The position numbers and the translations under genes are program-made. Shown in pieces: positions 11,659 to 29,823 of a stretch of DNA of 41,159 nt; position 1 is the stretch's first letter, and every line of letters starts with the position of its first letter. The stretch comes from a virus. The stretch is from positions 1 to 41,159 of IMG/VR virus record IMGVR_UViG_3300022752_000146, one strand, 5' to 3'. Under the pieces are notes generated by a model. It was not told the origin of the DNA. It made no database searches and saw only the letters and a program-made list of their open reading frames with translations.

Positions 11659-12576
11659 TTATTTATTTGTTGGAATTGGAATGTAATTAAAGTCATATTT
11701 TTTACTTGGTTCGCTCCAGTCAAAAACAGGAATGTTTCTTCCTGAGAACTCGCCAAGTAATAAAATCCATTCATGTCCATTATCTATAAAAACTTTATGT
11801 ATGGATTCTAGAGGTGTAAAATATCCAATACCACTGCCAGTAACAACATCAGAAGTTCCCCAACAAACTCCAACATGCCATCCTGAATTTGTTAACAGTC
11901 CTCCGCCAGATCTTCCTGGTCTAGGGCTATTCTTAATTGTAATTAAGTCCTCACCTCTTTTTTCTAAAAATTCCACTTCATATCTTGCTACTTCTCTGCC
12001 TCCGTCACATCCTAAAGAATTCAATTTATCTCCTTTATTTATCTTGTGATCTAAAGAAGCTATTGGAAAACAGTTTGGATTCCAATCTGGCTTGAATCTC
12101 AAACAGCTACAATCTCTGCCTCTTGTATTGCTATAAAATAAAACTTCTGCTTCGTATGACTTTGGCTCATCAATTCTTGAAGATCCAGGATACCAAGTAA
12201 TTATTTTTGCTTTTTCTTTATTTTTTAAAAGTTCTTTGTAAGATTTATTTCCATCCCAAAGATGACCACAAGAAATTACATAAGCCCAACCTTCTTCGGG
12301 TTCGTAGTAACAAATAGTTCCAGATCCACTTCCTCCATTGACGCTAATCTTAACTGAGGATAATAGAAATACCTTAAACTTCTCGTCTCTTTCTTCTTTT
12401 GGAGCCTGACTATTGGATACATTTATTGGTTTGCTGTTTCTTAGAACAGGCATCGCCACAACATCATTCTGTGGTGACCATTTTTCAATTATTTCATCAT
12501 TTTTATAATTGAAATTTAATAAAGAACATGCTAATATAATTGTAGAAAATAAGAACAAAATTGAAATCCTTTTCAT
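11659..12576 (-). CDS. Exported trypsin-like serine protease (putative lipoprotein) with C-terminal IPxP tail
   Basis: 305 residues. The N-terminal hydrophobic stretch ends in a lipobox (ILAC, Cys17), so it is probably lipid-anchored outside the cytoplasm. The chymotrypsin-fold triad is visible: SCGHLWDG (H105), GRDCSCLRF (D155) and PGRSGGGLL (S223, with the oxyanion Gly). The last residues are YDFNYIPIPTNK, a tail shared with the proteins at 13717 and 28879. GCAGGAGG lies 8 nt before the ATG. Exported trypsin-like proteases are rare in phages. Possible roles are cleaving host envelope proteins or blocking a competing virus. Confidence is high for the fold and low for the role. Confidence 0.85.
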   Translation of the reverse strand: MKRISILFLFSTIILACSLLNFNYKNDEIIEKWSPQNDVVAMPVLRNSKPINVSNSQAPKEERDEKFKVFLLSSVKISVNGGSGSGTICYYEPEEGWAYVISCGHLWDGNKSYKELLKNKEKAKIITWYPGSSRIDEPKSYEAEVLFYSNTRGRDCSCLRFKPDWNPNCFPIASLDHKINKGDKLNSLGCDGGREVARYEVEFLEKRGEDLITIKNSPRPGRSGGGLLTNSGWHVGVCWGTSDVVTGSGIGYFTPLESIHKVFIDNGHEWILLLGEFSGRNIPVFDWSEPSKKYDFNYIPIPTNK

Positions 12577-12610
12577 AGTTTAAGCCTCCTGCTTTTTTCT
12601 ACATATATAT

Positions 12611-13123
12611 ATGAATAATTTAGCTCTATTTATCACACATAATATTTTTTTTGACCAAACACAGATAAACTTGTTTTTGGAAAAAGATTACATCAAAATA
12701 GAAGGCGTAAGTGTTCCTGTTTGGGTTAACGCAAAGACTTCTAAAACAACAGAGCCCGCCCAAGAAATTTTTTGTGAATATGAGATTTTTAATAGACAAG
12801 AAAAAAATGATATATTATTAAATAAAAAAGGTTACAAGATATTATTATGCAATCAATTTTGGAATCCTCCAGAAGAGATTGACTTTAAAAAGTTAGCAAA
12901 TATGCATGAACAAGAAAGAATTGAATTTGAAGAAAAAAGAAACAAGTGGTGGAAAAAAAATCCAAAACCACTCTCCATAAGAGACTTTAAAGAAACAGAA
13001 TATTTTAGAATTGAAATTAAAAAGCTAAATGAAAAATTTGACAAGCTTCCTGGTCAAGAGGTAGATTGTCAGCACATAATAGAAATAAAGACCAAAAGTA
13101 AATTATATAATAGTTTGACTTAA
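12611..13123 (+). CDS. Hypothetical protein, 170 aa
   Basis: A hydrophilic protein starting MNNLALFITHNIFFDQTQ, with a middle segment WWKKNPKPLSIRDFKETEYF. No signal peptide or catalytic motif is seen. It has an alternating AT stretch just before the ATG and no ribosome site. Its stop overlaps the stop of the convergent gene by 4 nt. Family not recognised. Confidence 0.6.
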   Translation: MNNLALFITHNIFFDQTQINLFLEKDYIKIEGVSVPVWVNAKTSKTTEPAQEIFCEYEIFNRQEKNDILLNKKGYKILLCNQFWNPPEEIDFKKLANMHEQERIEFEEKRNKWWKKNPKPLSIRDFKETEYFRIEIKKLNEKFDKLPGQEVDCQHIIEIKTKSKLYNSLT

Positions 13124-13635
13124 TTTGAAGTTTGTAATGCCAAACCAATTCTCATTGTAACTAATTCGCCTTCAGATATAACTAAATTAGAGCCCAAAGG
13201 AACTGAGGATATTAATTTTCTAGTTCCTTGTGTTGCTCCACTAAGTGCTGTTGCTAAAAATATATTTCTAGCAGACCAATTGTTCGCGGTCGATCTGAAT
13301 ATAACTATTGGGCTGTTTGCTTGAAACCTACCGTTTATTCCGCTTGTCATAGTTACAGTGAAGTTTGTATTAGGAACTTCTTGTCTAGAGTATCCTTGAC
13401 CGCTAGACTCTACGCTTGGGATATCAAAAAAGCCATCATTGACATCTAAAACACTTCTTGTGTCTAGTCCTATATAATATTTTTGAACTAAAGAGATTCC
13501 GCCAAATAAAGCTTTAAGTATATATTCTTCTCCTTCTTTATGCAAAATATTTTTTAAATTTGAATTTTTATATAATATTTTGCCATTTTTATCTATATGG
13601 TTAATTTCTAAAACAGTCATTAAGTGGAAACTCAT
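13120..13635 (-). CDS. Probable virion structural protein, 171 aa
   Basis: GGAGG lies 7 nt before the ATG. The N-terminus has the pattern ILYKNSNLKNILHKEGEEYILKALF, then KYYIGLDTRS. The rest is beta-rich and Ser/Thr/Gly-rich, ending in LVISEGELVTMRIGLAL. Proteins with a NxLHxEGE...L-x-x-LF...YYxGLD layout occur among minor tail or base structural proteins of large phages. That comparison is from memory and not certain. No enzyme motif is seen. Confidence 0.55.
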   Translation of the reverse strand: MSFHLMTVLEINHIDKNGKILYKNSNLKNILHKEGEEYILKALFGGISLVQKYYIGLDTRSVLDVNDGFFDIPSVESSGQGYSRQEVPNTNFTVTMTSGINGRFQANSPIVIFRSTANNWSARNIFLATALSGATQGTRKLISSVPLGSNLVISEGELVTMRIGLALQTSN

Positions 13636-13668
13636 AATTTATCCTCCATAATTATTTAGTTAGATTAT

Positions 13669-13676
13669 TATAAATA
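13669..13676 (+). promoter_or_regulatory. TATAAATA box, T4-late-like
   Basis: An exact match to the T4 late promoter octamer, placed 40 bp before the ATG of the cysteine protease gene. That gene has a separate strong ribosome site. The genome is AT-rich, so a chance match is possible. Confidence 0.35.
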
Positions 13677-13716
13677 CATATGTGAATTTGATTTAATTGG
13701 TACTTCAAGGAGGTTT

Positions 13717-14463
13717 ATGAAAAAATTATTATTTTTAATATTTAGCTTTTCTTTAGCTATAGTATTTATATTAATATTAAATGAAGAAAGTGGAAATCAA
13801 GGTCTTGAAAAGTACCAAAAAGCACCAAAAAAAGCTTCAAAAATAGAGGGTGACTATAGAACCACATTTGTACCTTTTTATTCTTCTGGTCCGGGAGAAT
13901 TTGATTTAGAAAAAATACAATGCCCAATACCCTTAGAGGATAGAGTTAAAAATCATACAGGAATTCAATGCGTTTATTCTTCTATAGAAACGCTTGGAAG
14001 ATGGGCAGAAGAGCCCAAACTAACAAACCCTCCAATAACCAGCAGAGCAGAATGCAAAGGTTACTCTAGCCCAAGAAGAGCAGAAGAAATTCTTAATAAG
14101 CTCAATGTAAAATTTGAACAAACATACGGAAGCAAAGAAAAGGGAATATCGCTAATCAAAAAAGCAATGAAAGAAGGAAGAGGAGTTTTGTGGGATGTCC
14201 CAGGACATGCCATGGTTTTAGTTCATTATTCAGAAACAGAAAATAAAGTTTGTTGGGTTGATAATAGTGATAGGGCCTTAAGGGTACAGCAAACAACAAT
14301 TTCAAAATTTAATCAAAGATGGCAATCTTGGGTTTTAGTAATTTACGCAGATAAAGAAGTGGTAAAATACAAAATTTATAAAAATATAAATTTTCCCATA
14401 TTGGATCACAAATCTAAGAAAAATTTTCCTTTTGATTTTATTCCACTGCCAGAACTAAATTAG
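13717..14463 (+). CDS. Membrane-anchored or exported papain/C39-like cysteine peptidase with C-terminal IPxP tail
   Basis: 248 residues. The N-terminal hydrophobic segment (residues 3-21) is a signal peptide or membrane anchor, with no lipobox. The active-site pattern fits a papain-fold or C39-like peptidase: TGIQCVYSSIE (C85), PGHAMVLVHY (H164), then CWVDNSD (D182 or N183). The mature part has further Cys residues. The C-terminus is FPFDFIPLPELN, matching the tail of the proteases at 11659 and 28879. AAGGAGG lies 4 nt before the ATG. C39-type enzymes normally cut leader peptides; alternatively it could be a transglutaminase-like or amidase enzyme of the same fold. It acts outside the cytoplasm if exported. 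Confidence 0.75.
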   Translation: MKKLLFLIFSFSLAIVFILILNEESGNQGLEKYQKAPKKASKIEGDYRTTFVPFYSSGPGEFDLEKIQCPIPLEDRVKNHTGIQCVYSSIETLGRWAEEPKLTNPPITSRAECKGYSSPRRAEEILNKLNVKFEQTYGSKEKGISLIKKAMKEGRGVLWDVPGHAMVLVHYSETENKVCWVDNSDRALRVQQTTISKFNQRWQSWVLVIYADKEVVKYKIYKNINFPILDHKSKKNFPFDFIPLPELN

Positions 14464-14466
14464 TTT

Positions 14467-15153
14467 ATGGACTTATCTATTATAATTCAAACTTGCGACA
14501 AATATGAAAAATTTTGGCCTGGTTTTTTTTATTACATGAATAAATTTTGGGATAATAAAATAAAATCTAAAATTTACTTTTGCACAGAAGAAAAAAATAT
14601 AAATAATTGCAAATACCAACAAATTAATACCGGTCGTGGGACTTTCATTGAAAATCTTAATTTTATATTGAATAAAATAGAAACTAAATATGTGTTTTAT
14701 ATGTTAGAAGATTTTTGGCCATTGTGCGGAATAGACTATGACTTATTTTCTACAATATATAAGCTTATAGAAGAAAATGAAATAAATGCTTTTCAATTAA
14801 GTTCTTATACTCCTTATTACGACTTAGAAAAAACAAACATTAAGATAAGAAATCAAAATGTTTTTAAATTTAATAAAAATAGCGAATGGAGATTTAATTT
14901 TCAATCTAGATTTTGGAATAAAGAAGTATTAAAAAAATCTTTACTCGAACCAGAAATTTCAGAATCTATTGTAAGATCCGCTATAACAGCCGAAATTGCA
15001 TGTGATAAAAAATTCGACAAGGAAATAGAAGTTTATTTTTATCACCATTTCTGGTATCCGCTTAGCGGAGTGAGTTATCGGGGCAATTTTACTAATTTGG
15101 GAGAAGAGCTACATAATAATATGATGGTAGATTTATTTTCTAAAAGCATTTAG
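14467..15153 (+). CDS. Glycosyltransferase-like protein (GT-A type, tentative)
   Basis: 228 residues. The N-terminus, MDLSIIIQTCDKYEKFWPGF, reads like the first strand of GT-A enzymes. A later KYVFYMLEDFWPL (E81, D82) could be the metal-binding acidic motif. A C-terminal YFYHHFWYPLSGVSYRG holds paired His residues. It starts 3 bp after the protease gene stop, so it belongs to the same operon. The match is by general pattern only; a different nucleotide-sugar enzyme is possible. Confidence 0.55.
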   Translation: MDLSIIIQTCDKYEKFWPGFFYYMNKFWDNKIKSKIYFCTEEKNINNCKYQQINTGRGTFIENLNFILNKIETKYVFYMLEDFWPLCGIDYDLFSTIYKLIEENEINAFQLSSYTPYYDLEKTNIKIRNQNVFKFNKNSEWRFNFQSRFWNKEVLKKSLLEPEISESIVRSAITAEIACDKKFDKEIEVYFYHHFWYPLSGVSYRGNFTNLGEELHNNMMVDLFSKSI

Positions 15154-15157
15154 ACCA

Positions 15158-15577
15158 TTACCAATCTTCATCTTCATCTTCTAGACCCCATTCGTCTTCG
15201 TCTTCGTCTTCGTCTTCGTCTTCGTCTTCGTCTTCGTCTTCGTCTTCGTCTTCGTCTTCGTCTTCGTCTTCTTCATCGTCTTCATCTTCGTCATAGTCTT
15301 CATAGTCATCTTCATCTTCATCTTCATCTTCATCTTCATAGTCATCTTCATCTTCATCTATATCGTCATCGCCATCGTCATCGTCATCGTCATCAAAATA
15401 ATCATTATCATCATCGTCATCGGATGATGATTCTTCCCAATTCCAATTATTGTATTCTTCATTAATTATATTTAAATTGTCTTCTTGTCCGGAATACCAT
15501 TCGTTTTCATCATTGTATACATCGACTTCGTAAATGTCAGATTCACAAAAATCATTATCAGATTTTCCTAAATTCAT
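15158..15577 (-). CDS. Highly acidic Glu-Asp repeat protein
   Basis: 139 residues. GGAG lies 5 nt before ATG 15577 (MNLGKSD), which I prefer over an upstream in-frame ATG at 15619. The first 50 residues are mixed and aromatic (NEWYSGQEDNLN, NNWNWEESS). The rest is almost only Asp and Glu, with DEDE runs. Possible roles are DNA mimicry, cation binding or charge balance inside the head; none is shown by sequence. The Glu-Asp run is coded by a hexamer repeat that can change length by slippage. Confidence 0.6.
   Translation of the reverse strand: MNLGKSDNDFCESDIYEVDVYNDENEWYSGQEDNLNIINEEYNNWNWEESSSDDDDDNDYFDDDDDDDGDDDIDEDEDDYEDEDEDEDEDDYEDYDEDEDDEEDEDEDEDEDEDEDEDEDEDEDEDEDEWGLEDEDEDW
15191..15270 (-). 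repeat. TCTTCG hexamer microsatellite
   Basis: About 13 perfect copies of TCTTCG on the plus strand encode alternating Glu and Asp on the minus strand. The array is pure, so it is probably recent or prone to slippage. Confidence 0.9.
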
Positions 15578-15696
15578 TTTTACTCCAGTTCTAAATAATT
15601 GATGAAAACTATATATCATATAAAAAGCAAATTTTTACTTATTAATATGATTTTGAAATCTTATCATATTTTAACATTATAAGTCAATAGATAAAT

Positions 15697-17103
15697 CTAA
15701 ACTATATAATTTCTAATTAATTTATTGTTTTCTATTGACCACATGTTATTTTTATCTTGTTTTTCTATTATAGAAAGACAAAATAAAGAAGAATCTAATA
15801 GTTGTTGTTCGTTAGGAACAACCTCATCTATTAATGTTCCATTGTTATCAAATTCAAAGTAAATATCAGAAGGAACTTCTACTTCCACTTCTTTATTTGG
15901 GCCTGATAGGGCTGAAATACTCTGTATTTTCATCGTTTTATTTTTACTTAATTTGACAATTGTTCCTTTGCTATTTTTTACAACTTGATCATCTTTACTT
16001 AAGTTTAAAACAACTTCATCCCAAGAAGTATTTGATAAAATTTTTAAAGAATCTTTATTCAAAATATTGAATTCAATAAAAGATTCTTTTACTAAACTTT
16101 CGTATTCTGGATATTTTATTTTTGACAATGCAACCATGCATTTGGCTATCGCAGAATAATAATCTACTGCTCTCGGGCTGGTGGGGATTGCTTGTAGCAG
16201 TAGTGAAAAACAAATATCCCTAGCTTTTTTAATTGCTATAATTGGAGAATTTAACAAGCACTCTTTATTATAAACTTTAACAAAAACATTATACCAAGCG
16301 GCAGAAAAAACTCTACCAAAACTATGGCATTCCGCTGCGAGTTGTTCATTCGCAGCTTCTTCAGGTAAACTTCTTGGGTCAACGTACTTGAAAACTTCTA
16401 TAGAAGGATCTCTTAATGCATTTGGCAAATATTTATCTTGATAATTATTATAAATAAAAATTCCGACTTCTTCCGCCAATCTTGAAACTAAATTAGATTT
16501 AGATATGTCTCCATTTGTTTCTTCTAAAACTTTTTTCAAAGCTTCTTCATATTGCATTATGCTAACAATAGAACATATGTCTGCAAACGCCTCGTGAAAA
16601 GACCATATTTCTAAAGATTGAACGCTCCAGAAATCTGGTCGTGCTGCATCTAATATTGCATGTCCTAATTCATGAGATATTATATCTTGTGAATCCGCTG
16701 TATATATTGTTTTGTTATTGACTTTAGCGTAAAAAAATCTCAACGCTCTTCTGTCGTAGTAGGCATTAACATCGATTCCGGCCAAAGGAACTACGTCTAA
16801 ATTCTGCGTTGCTGCCCACTTTTTTATAATTGTTTTGCTATTTTTTTGAACATAATTTATAAAATTGCCTATTGTAATAAAGCAATTTAGGGCTCTTTTT
16901 TGATTTTGATTTTTTGGCTGCGGGTTGTAGTCTCTAACTGAATATTTTAATATTCCAACGGAAGGAATTTCTACTTTTTCAACTAAATTATAAGTAGAAT
17001 CATTAATTGTGTAATCTATAATTTTTTTAGTATTTAAATTAGAAGATTTGGGAGAAGATGCTTTAGATTTAGGAAATAACAGATTATATAAATTATAAAA
17101 CAC
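15697..17103 (-). CDS. Zinc metallopeptidase, gluzincin (thermolysin-like) type
   Basis: 468 residues from GTG 17103. AAGGAGG lies 6 nt before this GTG, while an in-frame ATG at 17127 is upstream of that site, so the GTG is the likely start. The active site is SHELGHAIL (H144, E145, H148), with the third ligand in SFHEAFADI (E171, Asp four residues later), the arrangement of M4/M36 peptidases. A helical domain follows, with AECHSFGRVFSAAWY. The last 150 residues are beta-rich and unassigned. The N-terminus (MFYNLYNLLFPKSKAS) is not a typical signal peptide. It lies between the exported cysteine protease and the MscL-like gene and lacks the IPxP tail. Confidence 0.8.
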   Translation of the reverse strand: MFYNLYNLLFPKSKASSPKSSNLNTKKIIDYTINDSTYNLVEKVEIPSVGILKYSVRDYNPQPKNQNQKRALNCFITIGNFINYVQKNSKTIIKKWAATQNLDVVPLAGIDVNAYYDRRALRFFYAKVNNKTIYTADSQDIISHELGHAILDAARPDFWSVQSLEIWSFHEAFADICSIVSIMQYEEALKKVLEETNGDISKSNLVSRLAEEVGIFIYNNYQDKYLPNALRDPSIEVFKYVDPRSLPEEAANEQLAAECHSFGRVFSAAWYNVFVKVYNKECLLNSPIIAIKKARDICFSLLLQAIPTSPRAVDYYSAIAKCMVALSKIKYPEYESLVKESFIEFNILNKDSLKILSNTSWDEVVLNLSKDDQVVKNSKGTIVKLSKNKTMKIQSISALSGPNKEVEVEVPSDIYFEFDNNGTLIDEVVPNEQQLLDSSLFCLSIIEKQDKNNMWSIENNKLIRNYIV

Positions 17104-17141
17104 AGCGAACCTCCTTGTAATATACATATCTATATATTTTT

Positions 17142-17585
17142 ATGAAATATAAATTTGAAAATCACAAATCATTTATTGGTGAAAATGAATTAAAAAAATA
17201 TAAAGAATTTGCATTTAAAGAAGACATGATGAAAATGTCTATAGCTTTTATTCTTGGTTCTTCATTCAACAAAATTATTGCAGGAGTGTCTGATCTCGTG
17301 TTGATGCCGATTATAAATTTCACGGCTAAAAAGACAGGGGATTGGAGATTGTGGAATTTTAGTTTAATTGAAGGTCTGACTTTTGAAGTAGGAAAATTTT
17401 TAGGAGTCTTAGTGGATTTTTTTCTTATTTCTATATTACTTTATATAGTTTACTCTAAAATATTACAAAACATAAATACATCAGGGCATGCTTCCGTTCA
17501 ATTAAAAGAATGCCCTTTATGTAAAAGTGAAATAAATTATTTTGCAATAAAATGCCCAGAATGCACAGGAGATTTAGATGGCTAG
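17142..17585 (+). CDS. mscL: MscL-like large mechanosensitive channel with zinc-ribbon tail
   Basis: 147 residues. The MscL core is clear: YKEFAFKEDMMKMSIAFILG as the N-terminal helix and start of TM1, SSFNKIIAGVSDLVLMPIIN after it, and TM2 as FLGVLVDFFLISILLYIVY. The C-terminus is CPLCKSEINYFAIKCPEC, the zinc-ribbon tail found on many bacterial MscL proteins. MscL opens under membrane tension and releases small solutes. In a virus it could relieve osmotic stress or disrupt the membrane late in infection; this is inference. TATATT lies 3 nt before the ATG and there is no ribosome site. Its end overlaps the next gene by 8 nt. Confidence 0.85.
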   Translation: MKYKFENHKSFIGENELKKYKEFAFKEDMMKMSIAFILGSSFNKIIAGVSDLVLMPIINFTAKKTGDWRLWNFSLIEGLTFEVGKFLGVLVDFFLISILLYIVYSKILQNINTSGHASVQLKECPLCKSEINYFAIKCPECTGDLDG

Positions 17586-18207
17586 TGCTGAGGAATTCGA
17601 AGATAAAATAAGAGAAAAAAGAATATTAGAGGCTAATAAAAAGGGTCTGATGGGGCAGAATGGAAAAATAGGCATAGTATTAAAAACATTTGGAGACCCG
17701 ATAATCAGTCAATCAGAAGGCGGCTACTATGTTGATTCTAATTACATAGATTTAGAAGGAATTAATAACGACGAGCCTTCAGAAATTAATAATTCAAATG
17801 ATTTGATGAAAAAAATTCCAATAATGAACATTGAAGGAAATAAAAGGCCAGATTCACAAGAATGGTATCAAGAAATGCCAGATCCTATTTCTTATGGCGT
17901 CGATACAATAGGCATACACTTTGATGGCCTAAACAGAGGAATGCATTTAGAAATAAAGTATGAGGAAATCTCGTCAGAATTGATTGTGTATTACAAGGGC
18001 TACTTAGTTTACAAAGAATCAAAAGGAGAACTTTTATCATACGCTCCATATGAAGAATGGGAAAAATGGATAGATTCTTTATATAAAGTAGCAAAAGAAA
18101 AACAAAGAATATTAAAAGAAAAAGAATTTGAAGATTCGGTGAAGCAAGCAGAAAAAGACAAATCTGCGTGGTGGGAATCTATTAAAAAAAGATGGGGAAT
18201 TAATTAA
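17578..18207 (+). CDS. Hypothetical protein, 209 aa
   Basis: The start overlaps the end of the MscL-like gene by 8 nt, so the two are probably translationally coupled. It is a soluble protein with a charged N-terminal helix, a middle region containing EEISSELIVYYKGYLVYKES and a long Lys/Glu helix at the C-terminus. No family recognised. A link to the channel rests on position alone. A hairpin terminator overlaps its stop. Confidence 0.6.
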   Translation: MASAEEFEDKIREKRILEANKKGLMGQNGKIGIVLKTFGDPIISQSEGGYYVDSNYIDLEGINNDEPSEINNSNDLMKKIPIMNIEGNKRPDSQEWYQEMPDPISYGVDTIGIHFDGLNRGMHLEIKYEEISSELIVYYKGYLVYKESKGELLSYAPYEEWEKWIDSLYKVAKEKQRILKEKEFEDSVKQAEKDKSAWWESIKKRWGIN

Positions 18208-18227
18208 TTCCCCAATAATCTTTTTTT
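18193..18227 (+). terminator. Bidirectional terminator between convergent genes
   Basis: A perfect palindrome (GGGGAATTAATTAATTCCCC, 18194-18213, extended by one T-A pair) is preceded by an A run (18184-18190) and followed by seven T (18221-18227). It sits between the stops of convergent genes, and the upstream A run would serve the minus strand. The T run is 7 nt from the stem, which weakens the plus-strand reading. Confidence 0.6.
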
Positions 18228-18237
18228 ATAAATATAA

Positions 18238-18618
18238 TCAATTAGCAAATATTAGATATGCCAAGCCTAGAACCTGAGCAGCAATAACTACAACCAATCC
18301 AATTGTTAATAAAGATGGTTTTTTGCTCATAAGTTTTTCTTCAACTAAAACTTGCATAGGAGACTTTACTTGATCAACTGACTCAACGACTGCGTTGTCT
18401 GAAACTTTCTCCACCACTCTACTTACAATTTCTCCAGTGACTTCGTCTATAGTTTCAATTTCTCTTTCGCAGACACAATATTTTTCAGTAATTCTTTGAG
18501 CCAACTTTTTCTCCGGCTTTGGTTCAACATATATTTCTGTTACTCTAGTCTTTCCTTGATCTATTTCAATTTTTTCTGCTTTTCTACCATCTTCAAATAA
18601 AAATTCAGAGTCAGACAT
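18238..18618 (-). CDS. Tail-anchored membrane protein, 126 aa
   Basis: AAGGAG lies 5 nt before the ATG. The first 100 residues are charged and soluble, with a Cys pair (CVCERE) and a Val/Glu-rich stretch. The last 25 residues form one membrane segment (LLTIGLVVVIAAQVLGLAYL), leaving the N-terminal part in the cytoplasm. There is no signal peptide. No family recognised. A spanin or holin role would need export or several membrane segments, which are absent. Confidence 0.65.
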   Translation of the reverse strand: MSDSEFLFEDGRKAEKIEIDQGKTRVTEIYVEPKPEKKLAQRITEKYCVCEREIETIDEVTGEIVSRVVEKVSDNAVVESVDQVKSPMQVLVEEKLMSKKPSLLTIGLVVVIAAQVLGLAYLIFAN

Positions 18619-18748
18619 TTTTTCTCCTTGATACTTTACTTTAAGAGTATATAGTTAAAAATAAAATTTTAAATTTCAAATAATATATACTGTATAAGAG
18701 TATAAATTGTTGTAATTTATATTTTAGTCTTATAACATGGAGGTTAAT

Positions 18749-20884: not shown

Positions 20885-20908
20885 AGAATAGATTGATAAA
20901 AAATTGGA

Positions 20909-20938
20909 AGCAGCCATCGAAAGGTGGCTGCTTTTTTT
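20909..20938 (+). terminator. Intrinsic terminator after the beta-propeller gene
   Basis: An 8-bp stem (AGCAGCCA/TGGCTGCT) with an 8-nt loop runs into seven T (20932-20938). It lies 24 bp after the stop at 20884. Confidence 0.85.
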
Positions 20939-20947
20939 ATTTAATAA

Positions 20948-20955
20948 TATAAATA
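20948..20955 (+). promoter_or_regulatory. TATAAATA box before the QueC-like gene
   Basis: An exact TATAAATA octamer between the terminator and the ATG at 20961. Only 5 nt separate box and start codon, so the transcript would be leaderless or nearly so. Chance is possible in this AT-rich DNA. Confidence 0.35.
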
Positions 20956-20960
20956 ATAAC

Positions 20961-22230: not shown

Positions 22231-22670
22231 TTTTCCCAAATAACTATCACAACATTTTCTTGTGTTGGAATCACCATTGTAGATTTAGGAAACTTTGTTG
22301 GGAAATGAGTTGCATATTTCATTCCTTGTAATTTTTTAAGAAAAACTCTACAAATTAACTTGTTTGTTACATTTAGTAAATTATCAACTAAATCTAATCC
22401 TGCTAAGTTTAAAACTCCATCTCCAATAACAACATCTACATTTTGATTAATTTTACTCCAATCACATTTTATAACTGGCCTCTCTTGTTTTATTGGATTT
22501 AGATCCACCATGAAATCACAGAACTTGACTAGTTCTTTTGTCATTCCTAGTAAACAAATTGGTCCGCATCCTTTTATGTGATGCTTATAAATTTCTATTT
22601 CATATTCATTTGGAGATAGAGGCGGTTTTAAATTTTGCCAATGTTCTATGTCTTGTAATAAATTTTTCAT
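22227..22670 (-). CDS. Small methyltransferase-like protein
   Basis: 147 residues with a Rossmann-type pattern: GCGPICLLGMTKELVKFCD (motif I-like), FMVDLNP (strand 2 acid), KINQNVDVVIGDGVLNL (motif IV-like) and LICRVFLKKL. It is about half the size of a full methyltransferase, with no substrate domain. It has a TATAAA box 5 nt before the ATG and no ribosome site. Its stop overlaps the convergent methyltransferase gene stop by 4 nt. It could also be a catalytically dead relative. Confidence 0.5.
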   Translation of the reverse strand: MKNLLQDIEHWQNLKPPLSPNEYEIEIYKHHIKGCGPICLLGMTKELVKFCDFMVDLNPIKQERPVIKCDWSKINQNVDVVIGDGVLNLAGLDLVDNLLNVTNKLICRVFLKKLQGMKYATHFPTKFPKSTMVIPTQENVVIVIWEN

Positions 22671-22684
22671 ATTGATTTATATAA

Positions 22685-22708
22685 TATAAATATAAATATA
22701 AATATAAT
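22685..22708 (+). promoter_or_regulatory. Overlapping TATAAATA boxes
   Basis: Three overlapping copies of TATAAATA at 22685, 22691 and 22697, followed by TATAAT, in a TATAAA repeat directly before the ribosome site of the virion gene at 22720. This could be a T4-type late promoter, or a simple repeat. Confidence 0.4.
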
Positions 22709-22719
22709 TGGAGGATTTT

Positions 22720-23634
22720 ATGTCAAGCAATTTAACTTCAAAGCCATGTTGGCTATCTACTCACGAAAATGAAACTGGTAAAGTCGAAGGAATAGATTTT
22801 GGATTTGATAATAAGGGAATGTGGTTCTCAGGAAACGCAAATGCAGGAAGCGGCGGATCAGGACCCGGAGGAGGATACCCAGTAAGATCCGTAACAGAAT
22901 TTGAAACCAACGATGTTTGCGAAGTAATCTATACAGTAGATTATCAAGATGGTTGCTCCGATCAAGGAATCTGCATATTTAATACAGGCACAGAGCCAGA
23001 ATGGCATTGGGAACCTAATGAAACTAGAATAGCATTTTCTATGAATTGTCCTCAACCATATATTTACGGACAAACAAACGAAACAGCAGGAGAAGGTGGA
23101 GAACTACAAGGTGGCGAAGGCGCAGAATATGTAGCAAATTATTACACCTTTCATTTTACATACAATCCCTCCGAAGAATCTATTGAAGTCATAGCTTATC
23201 AAGGAGAAGGCACTGAAGGAACTGTTGTAAACACATTAAATATATCTGAAAAACTCCCCGAAGGAAATTACAAAATAGGATTTTCAGCCGACCAAGATAA
23301 CATGGGCGAAAAAGCTTATTTTACAAATATGCAAATATTAAAAAATGGGCAAAATGCAACTAGTATAGCTCAGGAATACACATACGAACTAAGCCCAGAC
23401 AATCCAGAAATTATTCCTAATTATCAATATTATGGCGAAGGAAATATGGATACGGCAATTGTGGTCAATGAAGATGGAACAAGAAGATCAATACAAAGAA
23501 CTGGGTATTTTGATTATGTTGATGCTTGTGGGAATAGAAAAGTTATGAGAGTTAATGACGGAGAAACTATAACAGACGCTCCAGAAATTCCTTCTGGTCC
23601 AGAGAACCCAGCGGGACATCCTACTTTCAATTAA
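22720..23634 (+). CDS. Virion-type protein with lectin-like domain
   Basis: 304 residues. GGAGGA lies 4 nt before ATG 22720; a TTG at 22708 overlaps that site and is rejected. Residues 1-215 form a beta-sandwich-like domain with a Gly-rich loop (GSGGSGPGGGYP) and segments such as GICIFNTGTEPEW and YTFHFTYNPSEESIEVIAY, resembling concanavalin A/L-type lectin folds. The last 65 residues (GEGNMDTAIV to NPAGHPTFN) match the C-terminus of the beta-propeller protein at 18749. It is probably a tail appendage or decoration protein with a sugar-binding part; the ligand is unknown. Confidence 0.65.
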   Translation: MSSNLTSKPCWLSTHENETGKVEGIDFGFDNKGMWFSGNANAGSGGSGPGGGYPVRSVTEFETNDVCEVIYTVDYQDGCSDQGICIFNTGTEPEWHWEPNETRIAFSMNCPQPYIYGQTNETAGEGGELQGGEGAEYVANYYTFHFTYNPSEESIEVIAYQGEGTEGTVVNTLNISEKLPEGNYKIGFSADQDNMGEKAYFTNMQILKNGQNATSIAQEYTYELSPDNPEIIPNYQYYGEGNMDTAIVVNEDGTRRSIQRTGYFDYVDACGNRKVMRVNDGETITDAPEIPSGPENPAGHPTFN

Positions 23635-23729
23635 AAATTTTGCCATATAACTTAAAATTAAATTTAATAAAAGTAAATAATAATGTGCAAATGGACTGCA
23701 CACTTTACACTAGAAAAAGGAGTTTATAT

Positions 23730-24170
23730 ATGACACAAACAACCCAAGGAACAGGTCTAGGAGCAGCTCAAAGCTCAAGAGGTCCAGACGGAGGAAATAG
23801 ATTATCAGGAGTATACGTTACTCTAACTTCTCCTCGCGTAGTAGCAGCAGGCCATCTATACACAGAAAATAGCGAAGGAAATGGCAACTGGAAACAAAGA
23901 GTAAATTTTGAAACGCCCCTCTTTGGCGACCCACATGATTATGTTGTAATGGTGTGCCAAGACGACTATGGAACCAACGATGGTCGCAACAACTATCCTC
24001 CTCATATCGAAAAATTAGACGGAGAAGGAAATAATGAAGACGAAGGTTACACAGGTGGATTTGGTGGTTTTATCCTCCACACTGGAGACAATTCAGAACG
24101 CAGATTTATGTGGACTGTCATCAAGGTTGGAAACACCCCAGCATACAATTTGATTGGCCCAAATAGCTGA
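23730..24170 (+). CDS. Probable virion protein, 146 aa
   Basis: AAAGGAG lies 7 nt before ATG 23730, which decides the start; the frame runs open upstream to 23640. The sequence is Gly/Asn-rich and beta-like (GVYVTLTSPRVVAAGHLY, then DYVVMVCQDDYG and GGFGGFILHTGDN). It lacks the NPAGHP tail of its neighbour. No family recognised. A very stable terminator follows. Confidence 0.6.
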   Translation: MTQTTQGTGLGAAQSSRGPDGGNRLSGVYVTLTSPRVVAAGHLYTENSEGNGNWKQRVNFETPLFGDPHDYVVMVCQDDYGTNDGRNNYPPHIEKLDGEGNNEDEGYTGGFGGFILHTGDNSERRFMWTVIKVGNTPAYNLIGPNS

Positions 24171-24191
24171 TAAACTTTGTATAAAAAACAG

Positions 24192-24221
24192 AATAGCCGC
24201 CTTCGGGCGGCTATTTTTTTT
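24192..24221 (+). terminator. Intrinsic terminator with UUCG tetraloop
   Basis: A 10-bp stem (AATAGCCGCC/GGCGGCTATT) closed by a TTCG loop, followed by eight T. On the minus strand the stem is followed after 3 nt by six T, so it may also end the convergent gene at 24224. Confidence 0.9.
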
Positions 24222-24223
24222 AA

Positions 24224-25153
24224 TTAAGGATTAATCAAGTCGCCGCTTTGTAATACTATTGGAATTTCAACAACAGAACTAGGATTGGAATTAGATCCTG
24301 CATAGGAGTATTTTATTTTTCTTGCAAAATCTCCAACTTTTGCTCCTGCTGGGTATTCGATTATTTCTGTTATTCTATCTGATCCATCTACGGTTATTTT
24401 TTGAAATGTAAATAATCCTGGAGCTCTTCCTTCTAGCAATTCATAATCTTGTTTTGTAGAAGAAGAATTTAAATTTAAAGAATTACCTTTGTTATCAACT
24501 GCATTGTCAATAACATTATTATCTACATTAGAAGATCCGCCTGAATTTGATGGACTTAGTTCAACAAGAGCATTGGTTTCATCTGTTGGATAGGACATGT
24601 CTCCTCCCCAAACCTTATGCATTCTAAAATAACTAGGAAGTTCAGCAACGCCAGCTCTTGAATTAAAGCCTAGAACTTCTTCGGCACCGCCATTGACAAC
24701 AAAATATCTCATTCTTGAAGTTGGATATTTTTGTTTTATAATAATTTTATTTTTTAATACTTGATCAAAAGATTCAAGAGAAGCTGCGAAATATGAACTA
24801 AAGCTAGAATTTGAATTTAATATTGAGATTATTTGTGATGGTCTTATAGAAGAAGCATCTGGCGCTGGGTTTAAGCCTGCGTTAGAGTTATCTGTTAAAT
24901 CAATTTCAATATTTACCCATTCCTTATAACTTCCATTAATGGACATTCTTATTTTTAGTATTGATTTAAGATTTCCATCAGCATCATTTCCAGATAGATC
25001 ATAAATTCCATTGTTGGGTTGATTCCAAGCGGCTATGATTTCTTCTGACCTGCCTGTGTTTTGTGGACAAACAAATGTTAGAGAGTATTGTCTGTCTCCT
25101 AAGACCCAACTTCCTCTAAATTCTGATGCAAATGGATTTTGAAAATAACTCAT
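24224..25153 (-). CDS. Probable virion structural protein, 309 aa
   Basis: It begins MSYFQNPFASEFRGSWVLGD, then RQYSLTFVCPQNTGRSEE. The rest is Ser/Asn/Gly-rich and beta-like, with RYFVVNGGAEEVLGFNSR near 150-170, a low-complexity Asn/Ser segment near 205-235 and a C-terminal YSYAGSNSNPSSVVEIPIVL. The pattern suits a tail or baseplate component. There is no ribosome site, and its 5' end lies 28 bp from the structured element at 25182. I do not recognise a named family. Confidence 0.6.
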   Translation of the reverse strand: MSYFQNPFASEFRGSWVLGDRQYSLTFVCPQNTGRSEEIIAAWNQPNNGIYDLSGNDADGNLKSILKIRMSINGSYKEWVNIEIDLTDNSNAGLNPAPDASSIRPSQIISILNSNSSFSSYFAASLESFDQVLKNKIIIKQKYPTSRMRYFVVNGGAEEVLGFNSRAGVAELPSYFRMHKVWGGDMSYPTDETNALVELSPSNSGGSSNVDNNVIDNAVDNKGNSLNLNSSSTKQDYELLEGRAPGLFTFQKITVDGSDRITEIIEYPAGAKVGDFARKIKYSYAGSNSNPSSVVEIPIVLQSGDLINP

Positions 25154-25181
25154 ATTTAAATTGCCTCTATATTATCTAGAT

Positions 25182-25280
25182 TTTTATACGCCTTCCGCCA
25201 GAAAACCAGTCCCCCTTTAGGGGCTGAGATGAATGGCGGCAAAATTACACACTATATATATATAGTGTCGTTCAAGAAAG
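25182..25280 (+). repeat. Structured leader-like element, copy 1
   Basis: About 70 bases match the element at the right edge (41055) with about six differences, then a variable AT/AC repeat, then a shared GTCGTTCAAGAAAG. It can fold: outer stem CCGCCA (25195-25200) with TGGCGG (25234-25239), enclosing a C-run hairpin with a TTTA loop. A perfect 20-nt palindrome follows at 25249-25268. The element runs straight into a ribosome site and ATG. It may be a cis-acting RNA leader, or the end of an IS200/IS605-type element. Confidence 0.7.
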
Positions 25281-25288
25281 GAGAAATT

Positions 25289-25336
25289 ATGAAAAGTTTT
25301 AATGAGTGGATGCAAACAAATAAAATATTATATTAA
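25289..25336 (+). CDS. 15-residue MKSF mini reading frame
   Basis: The frame reads MKSFNEWMQTNKILY. AAGGAG lies 5 nt before the ATG, as good as any gene start here. The first residues match those of the large gene at 9371 and the small gene at 34539. It may be a leader peptide tied to the upstream element, or the remnant of a longer MKSF gene. Confidence 0.35.
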   Translation: MKSFNEWMQTNKILY

Positions 25337-25375
25337 GTGTATATTTTCCAAGTCTTTAGACAACAATGTCTTAGA

Positions 25376-25397
25376 AGTCCACTCCCTTTAGGGGGTG
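25376..25397 (+). repeat. CCC-TTTA-GGG hairpin
   Basis: CCACTCCC pairs with GGGGGTGG (one G-T pair) around a TTTA loop. The loop and C/G arms resemble the hairpin in the element at 25182. There is no T run, so it is not a plain terminator. Its shape recalls hairpins at IS200/IS605 ends, but no transposase is present. Confidence 0.5.
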
Positions 25398-25420
25398 GGA
25401 ACATTCACATAGTAATTAAA

Positions 25421-25454
25421 TAAAAAACCCGCCCGATAATTAAATCGGGCGGGT
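25421..25454 (-). terminator. Intrinsic terminator of the 102-aa gene
   Basis: An 11-bp stem (ACCCGCCCGAT/ATCGGGCGGGT) with a 6-nt loop, followed on the minus strand by six T (25427-25422). It lies 24 bp after the stop of the minus-strand gene at 25478. Confidence 0.85.
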
Positions 25455-25477
25455 CAGAGAGAATAAAAAATAATTAA

Positions 25478-25786
25478 TCAGGCGCCGCTTACAATCAAAT
25501 CTACTATTGAATGCTTTGTAAGGGTGCTTCTATCAGAATTCTTAGAATTCTTAGAAGTGCGAACCTGCCCCAGTCTGGCAATTTCGCTCTTCTTGAAAGA
25601 ATGAATCTTTGCATCCTGAAGGCGGCTGCAAACCTCATTCCCTCTTCTAAGAACATACCCCGTAACCACCTTGGCATTGTTTTCCACTACTGCTAGTGTG
25701 GTACGAATTGGCTTGGAATGATTACCCTTGTAATAAAATTTCCAAACCGGAAGATTTCTAACCAAAGCAAAAGAACGTCTCGACAT
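25478..25786 (-). CDS. Small basic hypothetical protein, 102 aa
   Basis: AAAGGAG lies 7 nt before the ATG. The protein is strongly basic (MSRRSFALVRNLPVWKFYYK, later RTSKNSKNSDRSTLTKHS), suggesting nucleic-acid binding. Its own terminator and ribosome site make it a single-gene unit. GC content looks higher than in its neighbours, which may mean later acquisition or high expression. No family recognised. Confidence 0.65.
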   Translation of the reverse strand: MSRRSFALVRNLPVWKFYYKGNHSKPIRTTLAVVENNAKVVTGYVLRRGNEVCSRLQDAKIHSFKKSEIARLGQVRTSKNSKNSDRSTLTKHSIVDLIVSGA

Positions 25787-25852
25787 GTTTGAACTCCTTT
25801 CTAAAAGTTCATGATTTAATCATTATCATAAAAATCACAAGAAAAGTCAACA

Positions 25853-26320
25853 TCAACTTTTCTTAATCATCATTCTAATATTGTCCGCATCAGATCTACT
25901 ATCTAATATTTGATCTTCTAAGAACAATTCGATGTATTTTCCATCAATCTTATCTTCACCTTCATTTTCTTGAAGCTTGGAGGCATCTTCTATTCTGGCG
26001 ACGTATTTGCTGACGACCTCTTCTTCCATTCTTAAAGCTTCTTCTAAGATTTCTTCAGGGCAGCTCAAATTATTTTTAAAATCAGCAACTTTAGTAGTAA
26101 CAGATTTATTAATCTGTCTTCTAGATAAAAGGCCATTTAAAAGCCTTTTAAATTCCTCTATGTGCTTCATTTCTCCTGCTGCTTCTTCAAGAAAAAACTC
26201 TCCTAGTTCTTCTCTATGCAGACCTGTTACAGACGTAGCGGCCTGCATGTAGAAATGCCAGTGGCTATATTCTCTAGAAAGATCTTCATTTAACAAATCA
26301 ATCAATTTATCTAAGTTCAT
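25853..26320 (-). CDS. Ferritin-like diiron-fold protein
   Basis: 155 residues from ATG 26320 (MNLDKLIDLLNEDLSREYSH); TTTGGAGT lies 8-9 nt upstream. Four-helix ferritin/bacterioferritin pattern: the first helix has NEDLSREYSHWHFYMQAA, the second has EEAAGEMKHIEEF with the E-x-x-H iron motif, and a later helix carries RMEEEVVSKY. The last helix has LEDQILDSRSDAD, where the usual E-x-x-H appears altered to Asp. Iron storage or oxidation, or Dps-like DNA protection, are possible. It overlaps the upstream gene by 14 nt and is probably coupled to it. Confidence 0.7.
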   Translation of the reverse strand: MNLDKLIDLLNEDLSREYSHWHFYMQAATSVTGLHREELGEFFLEEAAGEMKHIEEFKRLLNGLLSRRQINKSVTTKVADFKNNLSCPEEILEEALRMEEEVVSKYVARIEDASKLQENEGEDKIDGKYIELFLEDQILDSRSDADNIRMMIKKS

Positions 26321-26597
26321 CTTGTTTAACTCCAAATAGTGGTTCGTCGTTATCAAATCCAACAATAGAAAGTTTATCAGAAATAAAATTATTTAACAAT
26401 ATTTGTCCAATCTTAATACATCCTGCCCAGCTTACAACTCTCATTATTTCATCAAGCTCTGTGATATTTTGTTTTACACATGCTAAAATAATAGAATCTA
26501 TATCTTCTTTTGATAAAGATGTGTACTTTTTTTCTTCTTCGCACCAATGAAGATCATCCGCAGGTATGAGTTTATTTAATATTTTTTCATATTCCAT
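26307..26597 (-). CDS. Hypothetical protein, 96 aa
   Basis: A small mostly helical protein (MEYEKILNKLIPADDLHWCE, then ITELDEIMRVVSWAGCIKIG). It lies directly upstream of the ferritin-like gene with a 14-nt overlap, so the two are co-translated. No motif recognised. Confidence 0.6.
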   Translation of the reverse strand: MEYEKILNKLIPADDLHWCEEEKKYTSLSKEDIDSIILACVKQNITELDEIMRVVSWAGCIKIGQILLNNFISDKLSIVGFDNDEPLFGVKQDELR

Positions 26598-26660
26598 TTT
26601 GTTTTGCTTTAAATCAGGTTGTGTATTTTATAACAAAACAATAAACATTTATCAATATCA

Positions 26661-26810
26661 TTAAACTTTAGATTTTTCTTTTGTTTTCTTATGCCATTTT
26701 TCTAGTGTAATTTTAGTAAAGAAAGAAAACGTTCCGCTTATAATTCCGCCAAATATTATTTGGGTTAGCCAATAAGCTAAAGATATGTCTATAAATTTCT
26801 TTTTTTTCAC
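26661..26810 (-). CDS. Small single-pass membrane protein, 49 aa
   Basis: It starts at GTG 26810 (a TTG five codons upstream is an alternative). A basic N-terminus (KKKK) precedes one membrane segment (ISLAYWLTQIIFGGIISGTF), followed by a Lys-rich tail. The length is like that of small phage membrane proteins, but one segment is not enough to call a holin. No ribosome site is clear. It lies between the 96-aa gene and the divergent terminase gene. Confidence 0.45.
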   Translation of the reverse strand: MKKKKFIDISLAYWLTQIIFGGIISGTFSFFTKITLEKWHKKTKEKSKV

Positions 26811-26851
26811 AAATTTATTTATCAATAAAAATTAAAAAACTATATAATAAT

Positions 26852-28687
26852 ATGGAAAATAATAAATTGCCGCCCACAAATTTAGTTTATCCCACTGAGT
26901 CTTTTGAACATTTTTATCATCAATTTAAAAATGTTCGTGAAATGAGCGAGAGCGAAGATTGGAAAAATATATTTTCAATTTATTATGACCTAGACAAGTC
27001 GGAATTAAGCATTCCAATTGGGGAAACTACAGAAATGTTAAATTCTTTTTCCCCAGAACAGCAGCTTGAAGAAATTATAAAATGTGCAAAAAATTTCTTT
27101 TATTGGTGTCATCGATACGTTAAAATTCTTCATCCAAAATTTGGAACCATACCTTTCGTTCCATACAAATATCAAAGAAAAGTAATAAGAGAATATGAAA
27201 CTAAAAGATTTAATATGATCTCAAAGTTTAGACAGGGAGGACTGAGCACCTTGGCCGTGCTTTGGGGACTATGGAAATGCATGTATCAGAAAGATCAGCA
27301 AATATATTTTCTATCTAAAACAGACAGAGAAGCTTTAGCTGCTGCTGAAATTGCAAGAAGAGCAATGGATAATTTTCCTCACTGGATGTACGATGCAAAT
27401 CAAGCAGATATAACAAAACACGAAAAGAAATTTAATGACGTAGGATCAAAAATATGTTTTTATACACCTGAAGCTGCTCGTGGAAAGTCAGCAACATACA
27501 TTATAATAGATGAGGCTGCGTTTATTGATAATATGGATGAACACTGGAAGGCTATGTATCCCGTGGTTGCTACAGGCGGTCATATAGAGGTAATATCAAC
27601 GGTTAATGGATTGGGCAATTGGTATGAAGAAACATACCACGAAGCAGAAGCAGGTAGAAACTTTTTTAATATAATTAATTTGGATTATTGGGAACATCCT
27701 ACTTATGCCAACCCTGAGTGGGCAGAATCTATGCGTGCAAATTTGGGAGAAAAAGGTTGGCAACAAGAAGTTTTGCGAGACTTTTTGGGATCAGGAGAGA
27801 CTTATATTTCATCCAATATTATTAGCGAACTAGATAAAAGATCAAGGTCGGAAGAGCCAATTAGGTTTGCTTTTGAAAAATGGACGAACGAAGAACAACA
27901 AAGGCAAAATTATCCTAATGGTGCTTTGTGGATATGGAAAGAGCCAATGGAAGGACACGAATACATAATAGGAGCAGACTGCTCAGAAGGCGTTGGAAAA
28001 GATGGAGATAATTCTTGTTTTGAAATAATAGATGCAATAAGCTTAGAACAAGTTGCAGAGTTTTATAGCAATTTAACCCCTCCTCATACATTTGCACAAA
28101 TTATAAATCAAATAGGAATATATTATAATTCGGCAACTGTTGTTGTAGAAAACAACGCAATAGGCGGGGCTGTGATCAACAGCTTGTCTAATGATCTAGG
28201 GTATGAATCAATATACTATGAACACAAAAAAGGAATAGCATCTAAGCCTGGGGTAAAGATGGGGCCTTCTAATCGTCCATTATTATTAGAAAGCATGCAA
28301 CACAGACTAGGTAATAAATCACTAAAAATAAATAGCAAGCGTCTTGTAAATGAATTAAAAACCTTTATATTTAGTCCTCAAAAGAAAAGAGCAGAAGCAA
28401 TAAAAGGAAAACATGATGATGCAATAATGGCTATGTGCTTAGCTCTTTATGTTAGAGATGAAAGAGTTAGAGGCTTACCACTAGGGAGCGAGGAGTCTTC
28501 AGAAGTAATGTCTAAAATATTAAAAAGCAATGCTTACGAAGAAATAAAAAAAGAAATTTTAGAAGGCGGAGTAGAAAATTGGATCGATAAATCAGAAGAT
28601 GATATTGGCCCAAGTGTAAACATAAATAGTTTTGATTTTGAAATAAAAAGAAAGAATGACAAAATTCTAAAAGAATTCGGGTGGTAA
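26852..28687 (+). CDS. Terminase large subunit (T4 gp17-like)
   Basis: 611 residues. It packages DNA into the prohead: N-terminal ATPase, C-terminal nuclease. The ATPase P-loop is ISKFRQGGLSTLAV (residues 123-136). The usual Lys of GKT is Leu here, a variation seen in terminases with an upstream Lys/Arg. Walker B is YIIIDEAAF (D220, E221). The nuclease acids are IIGADCSEG (D376), VVVENNAIG (E433) and KHDDAIMA (D522/D523). TATAAT lies 3 nt before the ATG with no ribosome site. It heads the head module. No small terminase subunit is recognised in the window. Confidence 0.95.
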   Translation: MENNKLPPTNLVYPTESFEHFYHQFKNVREMSESEDWKNIFSIYYDLDKSELSIPIGETTEMLNSFSPEQQLEEIIKCAKNFFYWCHRYVKILHPKFGTIPFVPYKYQRKVIREYETKRFNMISKFRQGGLSTLAVLWGLWKCMYQKDQQIYFLSKTDREALAAAEIARRAMDNFPHWMYDANQADITKHEKKFNDVGSKICFYTPEAARGKSATYIIIDEAAFIDNMDEHWKAMYPVVATGGHIEVISTVNGLGNWYEETYHEAEAGRNFFNIINLDYWEHPTYANPEWAESMRANLGEKGWQQEVLRDFLGSGETYISSNIISELDKRSRSEEPIRFAFEKWTNEEQQRQNYPNGALWIWKEPMEGHEYIIGADCSEGVGKDGDNSCFEIIDAISLEQVAEFYSNLTPPHTFAQIINQIGIYYNSATVVVENNAIGGAVINSLSNDLGYESIYYEHKKGIASKPGVKMGPSNRPLLLESMQHRLGNKSLKINSKRLVNELKTFIFSPQKKRAEAIKGKHDDAIMAMCLALYVRDERVRGLPLGSEESSEVMSKILKSNAYEEIKKEILEGGVENWIDKSEDDIGPSVNINSFDFEIKRKNDKILKEFGW

Positions 28688-28688
28688 A

Positions 28689-28847
28689 ATGGATAAAAAT
28701 AAAAAATCAATTAATTTAATATATGAAGCTATAAAGTTTTTAGACCCATATGATATAAACATGAAATATGCAATTTCACATCTTAATTTAGCAATAAATG
28801 AAATTAAGAAAAATGAAAATAGATTAAAGAAAAATAAAAAAATTTAA
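28689..28847 (+). CDS. Small basic protein, 52 aa
   Basis: It starts 1 bp after the terminase stop codon and reads MDKNKKSINLIYEAIKFLDP, then a helical Asn/Ile/Lys stretch with a poly-Lys end. Its tight spacing and normal composition suggest a real gene co-translated with the terminase. A small terminase subunit would usually be longer. Function unknown. Confidence 0.5.
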   Translation: MDKNKKSINLIYEAIKFLDPYDINMKYAISHLNLAINEIKKNENRLKKNKKI

Positions 28848-28878
28848 ACTATATTATTTAAATGTTTTGGTTCTAATT

Positions 28879-29823
28879 ATGCGTTATTTATTTTTATTTT
28901 TATTTTTATCTTTAATCTCAAACAAAGCTTTTGGTCAAGATAAAACTGGTTTTGCAATAGATCCTAATGCAAATAATATTGCTGCTCTTTTTACAATGAC
29001 AGATGAATCTGGGCGGACAAAAAATTTAGATCTTATGGAAAGTGTTTTTGAGGATGGGTCGTTAGGTTTTGAGGCAGAAAGATATCATAATGTTCCTTCA
29101 AATTTTATTTATAATAAATTAACAGAATTAGCTCTAAAGCTAGAGTCGGATTCAACATTATTATTGTATTTTAACAGTCATGGAGGAGGTAGCGGGAACA
29201 GATTTATAATGACTGCTTCAGGTGGTAGCTTTAAGTTTAGCAAAGCATTAGAAGCATTAAAAAAATCAAATAAAAAAATTAAAAGATTAATTTTTCTAGT
29301 TGACACATGCCACGCAGAAGGCTCCATACAAGATAGTTTGGGACAAGATGGAGAATTATTAAGAGATATAAAATTATCCACCCCAACAAACTATCTCCCA
29401 GAATTGCCATCTAAATTTACAAGAAAAACAATGCCTTTCGTTTCAATTTTCAACATAAAGACAGATGGTCAAATAGACTTTGGAGAAGATGAAAATGTCT
29501 ATGAGGAAATTCTTATTATTAGTTCTTCAAGCGTAGAAGACTTATCTATGAGAGGAACTTTTGCATCTCGTTTGGCAAGTACATTTGAAAAAGTAAAAAG
29601 CAATAAAGAAATAACTCTAGGAGAATTTCTAAAGAAATTTGCAGAAAGTCATCCTAAAAGCGGACAGCAACCTCATTATAAAATATTGCCACAAAATTCA
29701 ATGATTAATGAATTATTGTTTGGACCATCGCAGGCTCAAACAATAAAAATAATTGATAGATCAAAAAATATATCTAAATTTCCAGTTGATTATATTCCAA
29801 TGCCGAGAATTAAATCTCAATAG
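28879..29823 (+). CDS. Exported caspase-like (C14) cysteine peptidase with C-terminal IPxP tail
   Basis: 314 residues from ATG 28879; a TTG at 28867 would add four residues before the signal peptide. Residues 1-19 are a signal peptide (MRYLFLFLFLSLISNKAFG) with a likely A-F-G cleavage site. The caspase-fold dyad is LLLYFNSHGGGSG (H101) and RLIFLVDTCHAEG (C144), with the hydrophobic strands expected before each. SVEDLSMRGTFASRL later fits the last strand region. The C-terminus is KFPVDYIPMPRIKSQ, the tail shared with the proteases at 11659 and 13717. Bacterial caspase homologues act in proteolysis and cell death; an exported viral one is unusual. No clear ribosome site. Confidence 0.8.
   Translation: MRYLFLFLFLSLISNKAFGQDKTGFAIDPNANNIAALFTMTDESGRTKNLDLMESVFEDGSLGFEAERYHNVPSNFIYNKLTELALKLESDSTLLLYFNSHGGGSGNRFIMTASGGSFKFSKALEALKKSNKKIKRLIFLVDTCHAEGSIQDSLGQDGELLRDIKLSTPTNYLPELPSKFTRKTMPFVSIFNIKTDGQIDFGEDENVYEEILIISSSSVEDLSMRGTFASRLASTFEKVKSNKEITLGEFLKKFAESHPKSGQQPHYKILPQNSMINELLFGPSQAQTIKIIDRSKNISKFPVDYIPMPRIKSQ

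Follow-up and report, generated by a model that had tools for sequence, protein, structure and literature searches.

Why do three predicted exported proteases of unrelated folds, encoded by one phage, end in the same short C-terminal tail? The question is raised by the window, a 41,159-nucleotide stretch of DNA analysed here at its full length, which is an IMG/VR virus record (such records are possibly fragments) of a T4-like phage. Relatives of its capsid and terminase are spread over T4-like phages, and the nearest relative by these two proteins is LR756511, a 595-kb uncultured phage (capsid 77% and terminase 48% identical), while a search of INPHARED gave no match for the three proteases. 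The portal protein gene (31802-34300, plus strand) carries an apparent HINT/intein-like insertion (CIAGETRVSTLFEG...ENFCTDSTIMHNC), and a short-period repeat at the left end of the window (27-563, plus strand) reads (LVAALIGAVLLQLL)n in one frame.

The first-pass annotation had described three proteases of unrelated folds with a common tail. All three are present with their tails; the trypsin-like gene has the coordinates given there, but lies on the minus strand (12576..11659). The features are as follows.

11659..12576, minus strand: HtrA/trypsin-like serine protease, 305 aa (Trypsin_2, E 1.5e-6; Foldseek, HtrA/DegS)
12520..12576, minus strand: predicted N-terminal signal/anchor helix of the trypsin-like protein, residues 1-19, with a lipobox-like ILAC (hydrophobicity)
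11671..11742, minus strand: tail of the trypsin-like protein, GRNIPVFDWSEPSKKYDFNYIPIP (tail profile, E 1.7e-13)
13717..14463, plus strand: C39-like (papain-fold) cysteine protease, 248 aa (Foldseek, 3zua, ComA peptidase)
13717..13794, plus strand: predicted N-terminal signal/anchor helix of the C39-like protein, residues 1-26 (hydrophobicity)
14389..14451, plus strand: tail of the C39-like protein, FPILDHKSKKNFPFDFIPLP (tail profile, E 7.9e-9)
28879..29823, plus strand: caspase-like cysteine protease (Peptidase_C14), 314 aa (Peptidase_C14, E 3.1e-10)
28879..28938, plus strand: predicted N-terminal signal peptide of the caspase-like protein, about residues 1-20 (hydrophobicity)
29734..29805, plus strand: tail of the caspase-like protein, TIKIIDRSKNISKFPVDYIPMP (tail profile, E 1.2e-12)

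Each enzyme could be assigned its own fold and catalytic residues. The trypsin-like protein has the chymotrypsin fold of the PA clan (Foldseek probability 1.0 to HtrA/DegS; Trypsin_2 above cut-off), and its His-Asp-Ser triad of H105, D155, and S223 is invariant across 53 relatives. The C39-like family gave no match in Pfam or PHROG; the best Foldseek match of its model is the C39-like domain 3zua (E 8.1e-5), and Q84, C85, H164, and N183, the Gln-Cys-His-Asn/Asp set of C39 peptidases, are invariant across 37 relatives. In the caspase-like protein, H101 and C144 are conserved and form the His-Cys dyad of the C14 domain; the dyad is also present in a second subtype (L025/L031), which has no Pfam match.

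Export was judged from N-terminal hydrophobicity, without a signal-peptide predictor, and by this measure a signal-like segment was flagged in the window only on the trypsin-like, C39-like, and caspase-like ORFs. This agrees with the export or lipoprotein signal proposed earlier for all three, lipoboxes being found in only a few relatives of the three proteases, and the three tailed enzymes are thus predicted to be exported. The sole other strongly hydrophobic ORF of the window encodes a phage MscL mechanosensitive channel (17142-17585, plus strand), which has an extra C-terminal zinc-ribbon-like motif and relatives in other loci.

The common tail comprises about 22-25 residues with the pattern [IL]P[IV]xD-x6-8-[YF]xx[DEN][YF][IV][PL]xP. 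The shorter pattern first noticed, (F/Y)-x-(D/N)-(Y/F)-I-P-x-P, holds within it, but the common stretch is longer and starts with (I/L)-P-(I/V)-x-D 6-8 residues earlier, and the basic Ser/Lys stretch said to precede it is not conserved, the linker being where the C-terminal region is least conserved. Information content is about 3.0 bits per position in the domain, 2.4-2.5 in the tail, 1.6-2.0 in the linker, and 1.1-1.2 in the N-terminus. Two dialects of the tail occur, ...DYIPxP and ...(D/E)YILxP. The tail profile had exactly three matches in the window, one per protease; these three tails are among the 25 rows from which the profile was built, so that the independent evidence is that from other genomes.

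Family searches recovered 80 trypsin-like, 58 C39-like, and 28 caspase-like loci. Motifs were counted on 133 distinct relatives with an intact C-terminus, with 1,782 other ORFs of the same phage loci as background. The loose terminal motif is present in 125 of the 133 relatives (trypsin-like 60/65, C39-like 42/45, caspase-like 23/23) versus 7/1,782 other ORFs, and the eight failures mostly have the tail with a longer extension or an altered residue. The strict motif is present in 91 (50 trypsin-like, 29 C39-like, 12 caspase-like). Two outcomes had been named beforehand as counting against a shared signal, namely an equal rate in cytoplasmic proteins and orthologues without the tail. Neither was borne out: the strict motif was found in 0/1,782 other ORFs, and one of the 133 distinct C-termini, that of L219, clearly lacks the tail. 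Degenerate tails occur in a few relatives, e.g., L170 (strongly diverged) and L216. Like the catalytic residues, the last Pro of the tail never varies across 53 sequences of the trypsin-like and 37 of the C39-like family.

In five phages all three tailed enzymes were found. At identical tail residues within one phage, the same codon is used at 61 of 160 positions versus 73 expected from codon usage. The codons are thus randomised, which indicates that the likeness is kept by selection at the protein level and not by recent copying, and rules out that the tail was duplicated recently or spread by gene conversion. One trypsin-like protein is joined to one caspase-like protein by BLAST, presumably through the tail. 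For a sequence this short and proline-rich, one might suspect that the likeness arose by chance or survives neutrally from domain shuffling long ago; such an origin is already contradicted by the strict motif being absent from the background ORFs, by the near-universal conservation, and by the randomised codons, and has a negligible probability.

To find the tail independently of the enzymes, 2.9 million viral contigs were scanned with two DNA patterns that code for the tail alone and say nothing of the proteases. Pattern 1 (PIxD-x7-YxxDYIPxP) gave 27 stretches, all of them C-terminal with 0-24 residues beyond, and all 27 lie on a member of the trypsin-like, C39-like, or caspase-like family. 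Pattern 2 (DxNxxQGxYxx[DE]Y) gave 50 stretches, of which every C-terminal one (<=15 residues beyond) belongs to the three protease families, the remainder lying in unrelated phage proteins at a depth of >200 residues, as expected by chance. When whole records of up to 527 kb were searched with the tail profile, each gave 1-3 copies, again on these three families. The bacterial and archaeal genomes, 257 Gb in all, were scanned for the IP dialect only; pattern 1 matched once, in an unrelated ORF that runs on for 93 residues after it, and the tail profile misses this match. A 147-genome control gave one weak match containing stop codons. The tail is thus limited to three protease families and its distribution is phage-only; a cellular origin was rejected on the single chance, non-C-terminal match in 257 Gb (IP dialect). 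A plasmid search with one trypsin-like relative gave no match, and a phage-defence role was discarded on the lack of a PADLOC match. No NCBIfam family matched any of the 25 tails at E<=10, and Pfam gave weak unrelated matches only, which rules out a known sorting domain. A literature search of partial coverage found no description of such a tail, and we know of no C-terminal tag common to exported phage enzymes.

Whether the tail marks exported proteins in general can be judged from what else these phages export. A crude hydrophobicity rule, which also admits some spurious short ORFs, assigns signal-like or membrane N-termini to 39 ORFs of the 458-kb phage G023, and the tail is present on three of the 39, which are the three endoproteases; a fourth flag, on a membrane ORF of 78 aa, comes from the loose regex and marks no real tail. 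An exported Peptidase_M28 aminopeptidase, present in 5/10 tailed records and absent from LR756511, is tail-less. In several large phages its gene (L311:12131-13267, minus strand; L314:3646-4797, minus strand; L370-L372) and the tailed trypsin-like gene are no more than about 10 kb apart. A general export or sorting signal was rejected because of the 3/39 in G023 and the tail-less M28. Of the sorting or anchoring signal proposed by the first-pass annotation, there remains a restricted, selected C-terminal tail on exported proteins. The tailed proteases together with M28 suggest that endo- and exopeptidases are exported as one combined set.

These observations also bear on a second step of secretion or surface anchoring, in which a host machine would read the tail after Sec export, as in CTERM or type IX secretion systems. 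The C-terminal position on Sec-exported hydrolases and the layout of many proteins to one signal would fit it. We nevertheless hold this reading to be improbable, since a C-terminal tail is found nowhere in the 257 Gb of prokaryote genomes (IP dialect), matches no NCBIfam sorting model, has neither a transmembrane helix nor a basic cluster, and is missing from most exported proteins of the same phages.

The restriction to endoproteases, with neither the exported M28 exopeptidase nor other exported proteins carrying the tail, is what one would expect if the tail were a regulatory or cleavage segment read by the proteases themselves, whether for activation in a cascade or for self-inhibition at a shared site. 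A conserved xD would suit the caspase and R/K the trypsin, and both the xD and the A-R positions of the tail are well conserved. On the other hand, conservation peaks at the terminal YI(P/L)xP and not at a site of the P4-P1' type, and the trypsin-like tail is kept in records in which no caspase was seen (these records are perhaps fragments). Such mutual control is therefore unlikely, though it has a better chance than a host-read second secretion step.

The protease locus has a conserved order of primase, PD-(D/E)XK nuclease, trypsin-like gene, the genes at 12611 and 13120, C39-like gene, and M4-like metallopeptidase, and each neighbour of the protease genes was found in about 80-104 loci. Two neighbours lie between the proteases.

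12611..13123, plus strand: conserved neighbour between the trypsin-like and C39-like genes, also in the tail-less LR756511
13120..13635, minus strand: conserved neighbour, in 5/5 tailed genomes checked at the locus and missing from LR756511

LR756511 keeps this order minus the trypsin-like, 13120, and C39-like genes, and neither a caspase-like gene nor any tail was found in it. The 13120..13635 protein tracks the tail, but has no signal peptide and was rejected as the partner. The M4/thermolysin-like metallopeptidase (HELGH; 15697-17127, minus strand), found in 87 loci, is neither exported nor tailed. A small DUF3568 lipoprotein, also without the tail, adjoins the C39-like gene in 55 loci, e.g., L004:10036-10461 (plus strand), and is absent from the window; it was rejected as the partner on its absence from the tailed phage G023. 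A possible partner is a signal-anchored family of 269-298 aa, which occurs without the tail in G023, G020, G008, and G007 (L289:1668-2477, L325:16712-17608, L337:1180-2019, L316:7279-8133) and was not found in INPHARED. We take this family to be reminiscent of planctomycetal proteins, which may be a lead to the host.

Covariation of the tails was examined as a sign of a single partner. In 22 of 24 phages the trypsin-like and the C39-like protein have the same tail dialect (IPxP or not), which is mostly explained by the co-inheritance of the two syntenic genes (domain distances r = 0.91). Beyond shared descent, the partial Mantel correlation is 0.16 (p 0.065, not significant), and the nearest-relative swap gave 14 versus 6 (p 0.06-0.12). 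Within-phage covariation beyond shared descent is at most suggestive, and it was set aside as a proof of a single partner because the clear dialect agreement is mostly co-inheritance.

In the AlphaFold models, the domain of the C39-like protein is mostly >90 pLDDT and its tail 60-65, and the domain of the trypsin-like protein is mostly 85-98 and its tail 65-74. The modelled tails are irregular, with no helix and single-residue bridges at most, which is consistent with a flexible tail, low pLDDT being no proof of a free one. The Pro-rich terminal IPxP often lies 0-6 residues from the end, as would suit a cap that shields this end of the protein, either against tail-specific proteases of the periplasm or against those of the phage itself. 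Up to 24 residues may however follow the motif, in one case about 50 that are Ser-rich, and the conserved core reaches about 20 residues inwards, so that a stability cap is a poor candidate, less probable even than host-read secretion.

We put at about even the chance that the tail serves for docking, as a short C-terminal peptide that binds one common partner in the envelope. Each protease would be exported via its N-terminal signal and fold in the host envelope, presenting a flexible tail of about 25 residues, whose core (I/L)P(I/V)xD...(Y/F)xx(D/E)(Y/F)I(P/L)xP would be bound by a common partner of phage or host make. Three endoproteases of different specificity could in this way be held at the same site, probably for the dismantling or remodelling of envelope proteins during infection. 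Recognition of the tails by one putative partner is plausible; a role in binding, a partner common to all three enzymes, and the purpose are inferred here, as are export and flexibility. A more tentative extension of the docking peptide, to which we give perhaps one chance in three at best, is a phage recruitment code, in which one C-terminal tag assembles a proteolytic machine of serine, papain-type, and caspase-type enzymes on a single envelope scaffold; if true, it would be an undescribed stage of infection by large phages. The tail offers a way into the question of why several proteases are exported by large phages. A binding partner could be fished with a 25-residue tail peptide, e.g., ARQIPIIDRNNPQGKYPKDYIPLP, and LR756511, without the three proteases and the tail, offers a clean genetic contrast. 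The 25 residues would also let annotators recognise the exported-protease set, including caspase-like and C39-like proteins that are missed by Pfam and PHROGs.

Among known systems, PEP-CTERM, GlyGly-CTERM, and LPXTG resemble the phage tail in being short C-terminal homology domains common to unrelated Sec-exported proteins, and GlyGly-CTERM (rhombosortase) is likewise found on secreted trypsin-like proteases (PMC3237569). CTERM signals consist of a motif, a transmembrane helix, a basic cluster, and a sorting enzyme (PMC3237569). The phage tails have no basic cluster, and those that were read have no hydrophobic membrane-spanning segment after the domain; a CTERM-type signal is disfavoured because these required parts are absent; moreover, CTERM signals occur on many kinds of exported proteins, whereas the phage tail is on three protease families only. 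The C-terminal domains of type IX secretion are also carried by exported hydrolases, proteases included, but they are folded domains of about 70-100 residues from Bacteroidota, whereas the phage tail has about 25 residues, is predicted to be irregular, and matches no model. By Foldseek, HtrA and DegS, the latter a membrane-anchored periplasmic protease, have the fold nearest to that of the trypsin-like domain; unlike HtrA, the phage protein has no room for a PDZ domain, the position of which is occupied by the tail, and it scores far below the NCBIfam HtrA cut-offs. The two cysteine proteases share fold and catalytic residues with C39 peptidases and bacterial caspases (C14), and differ from these in being stand-alone, predicted exported, phage-encoded enzymes with a common tail.
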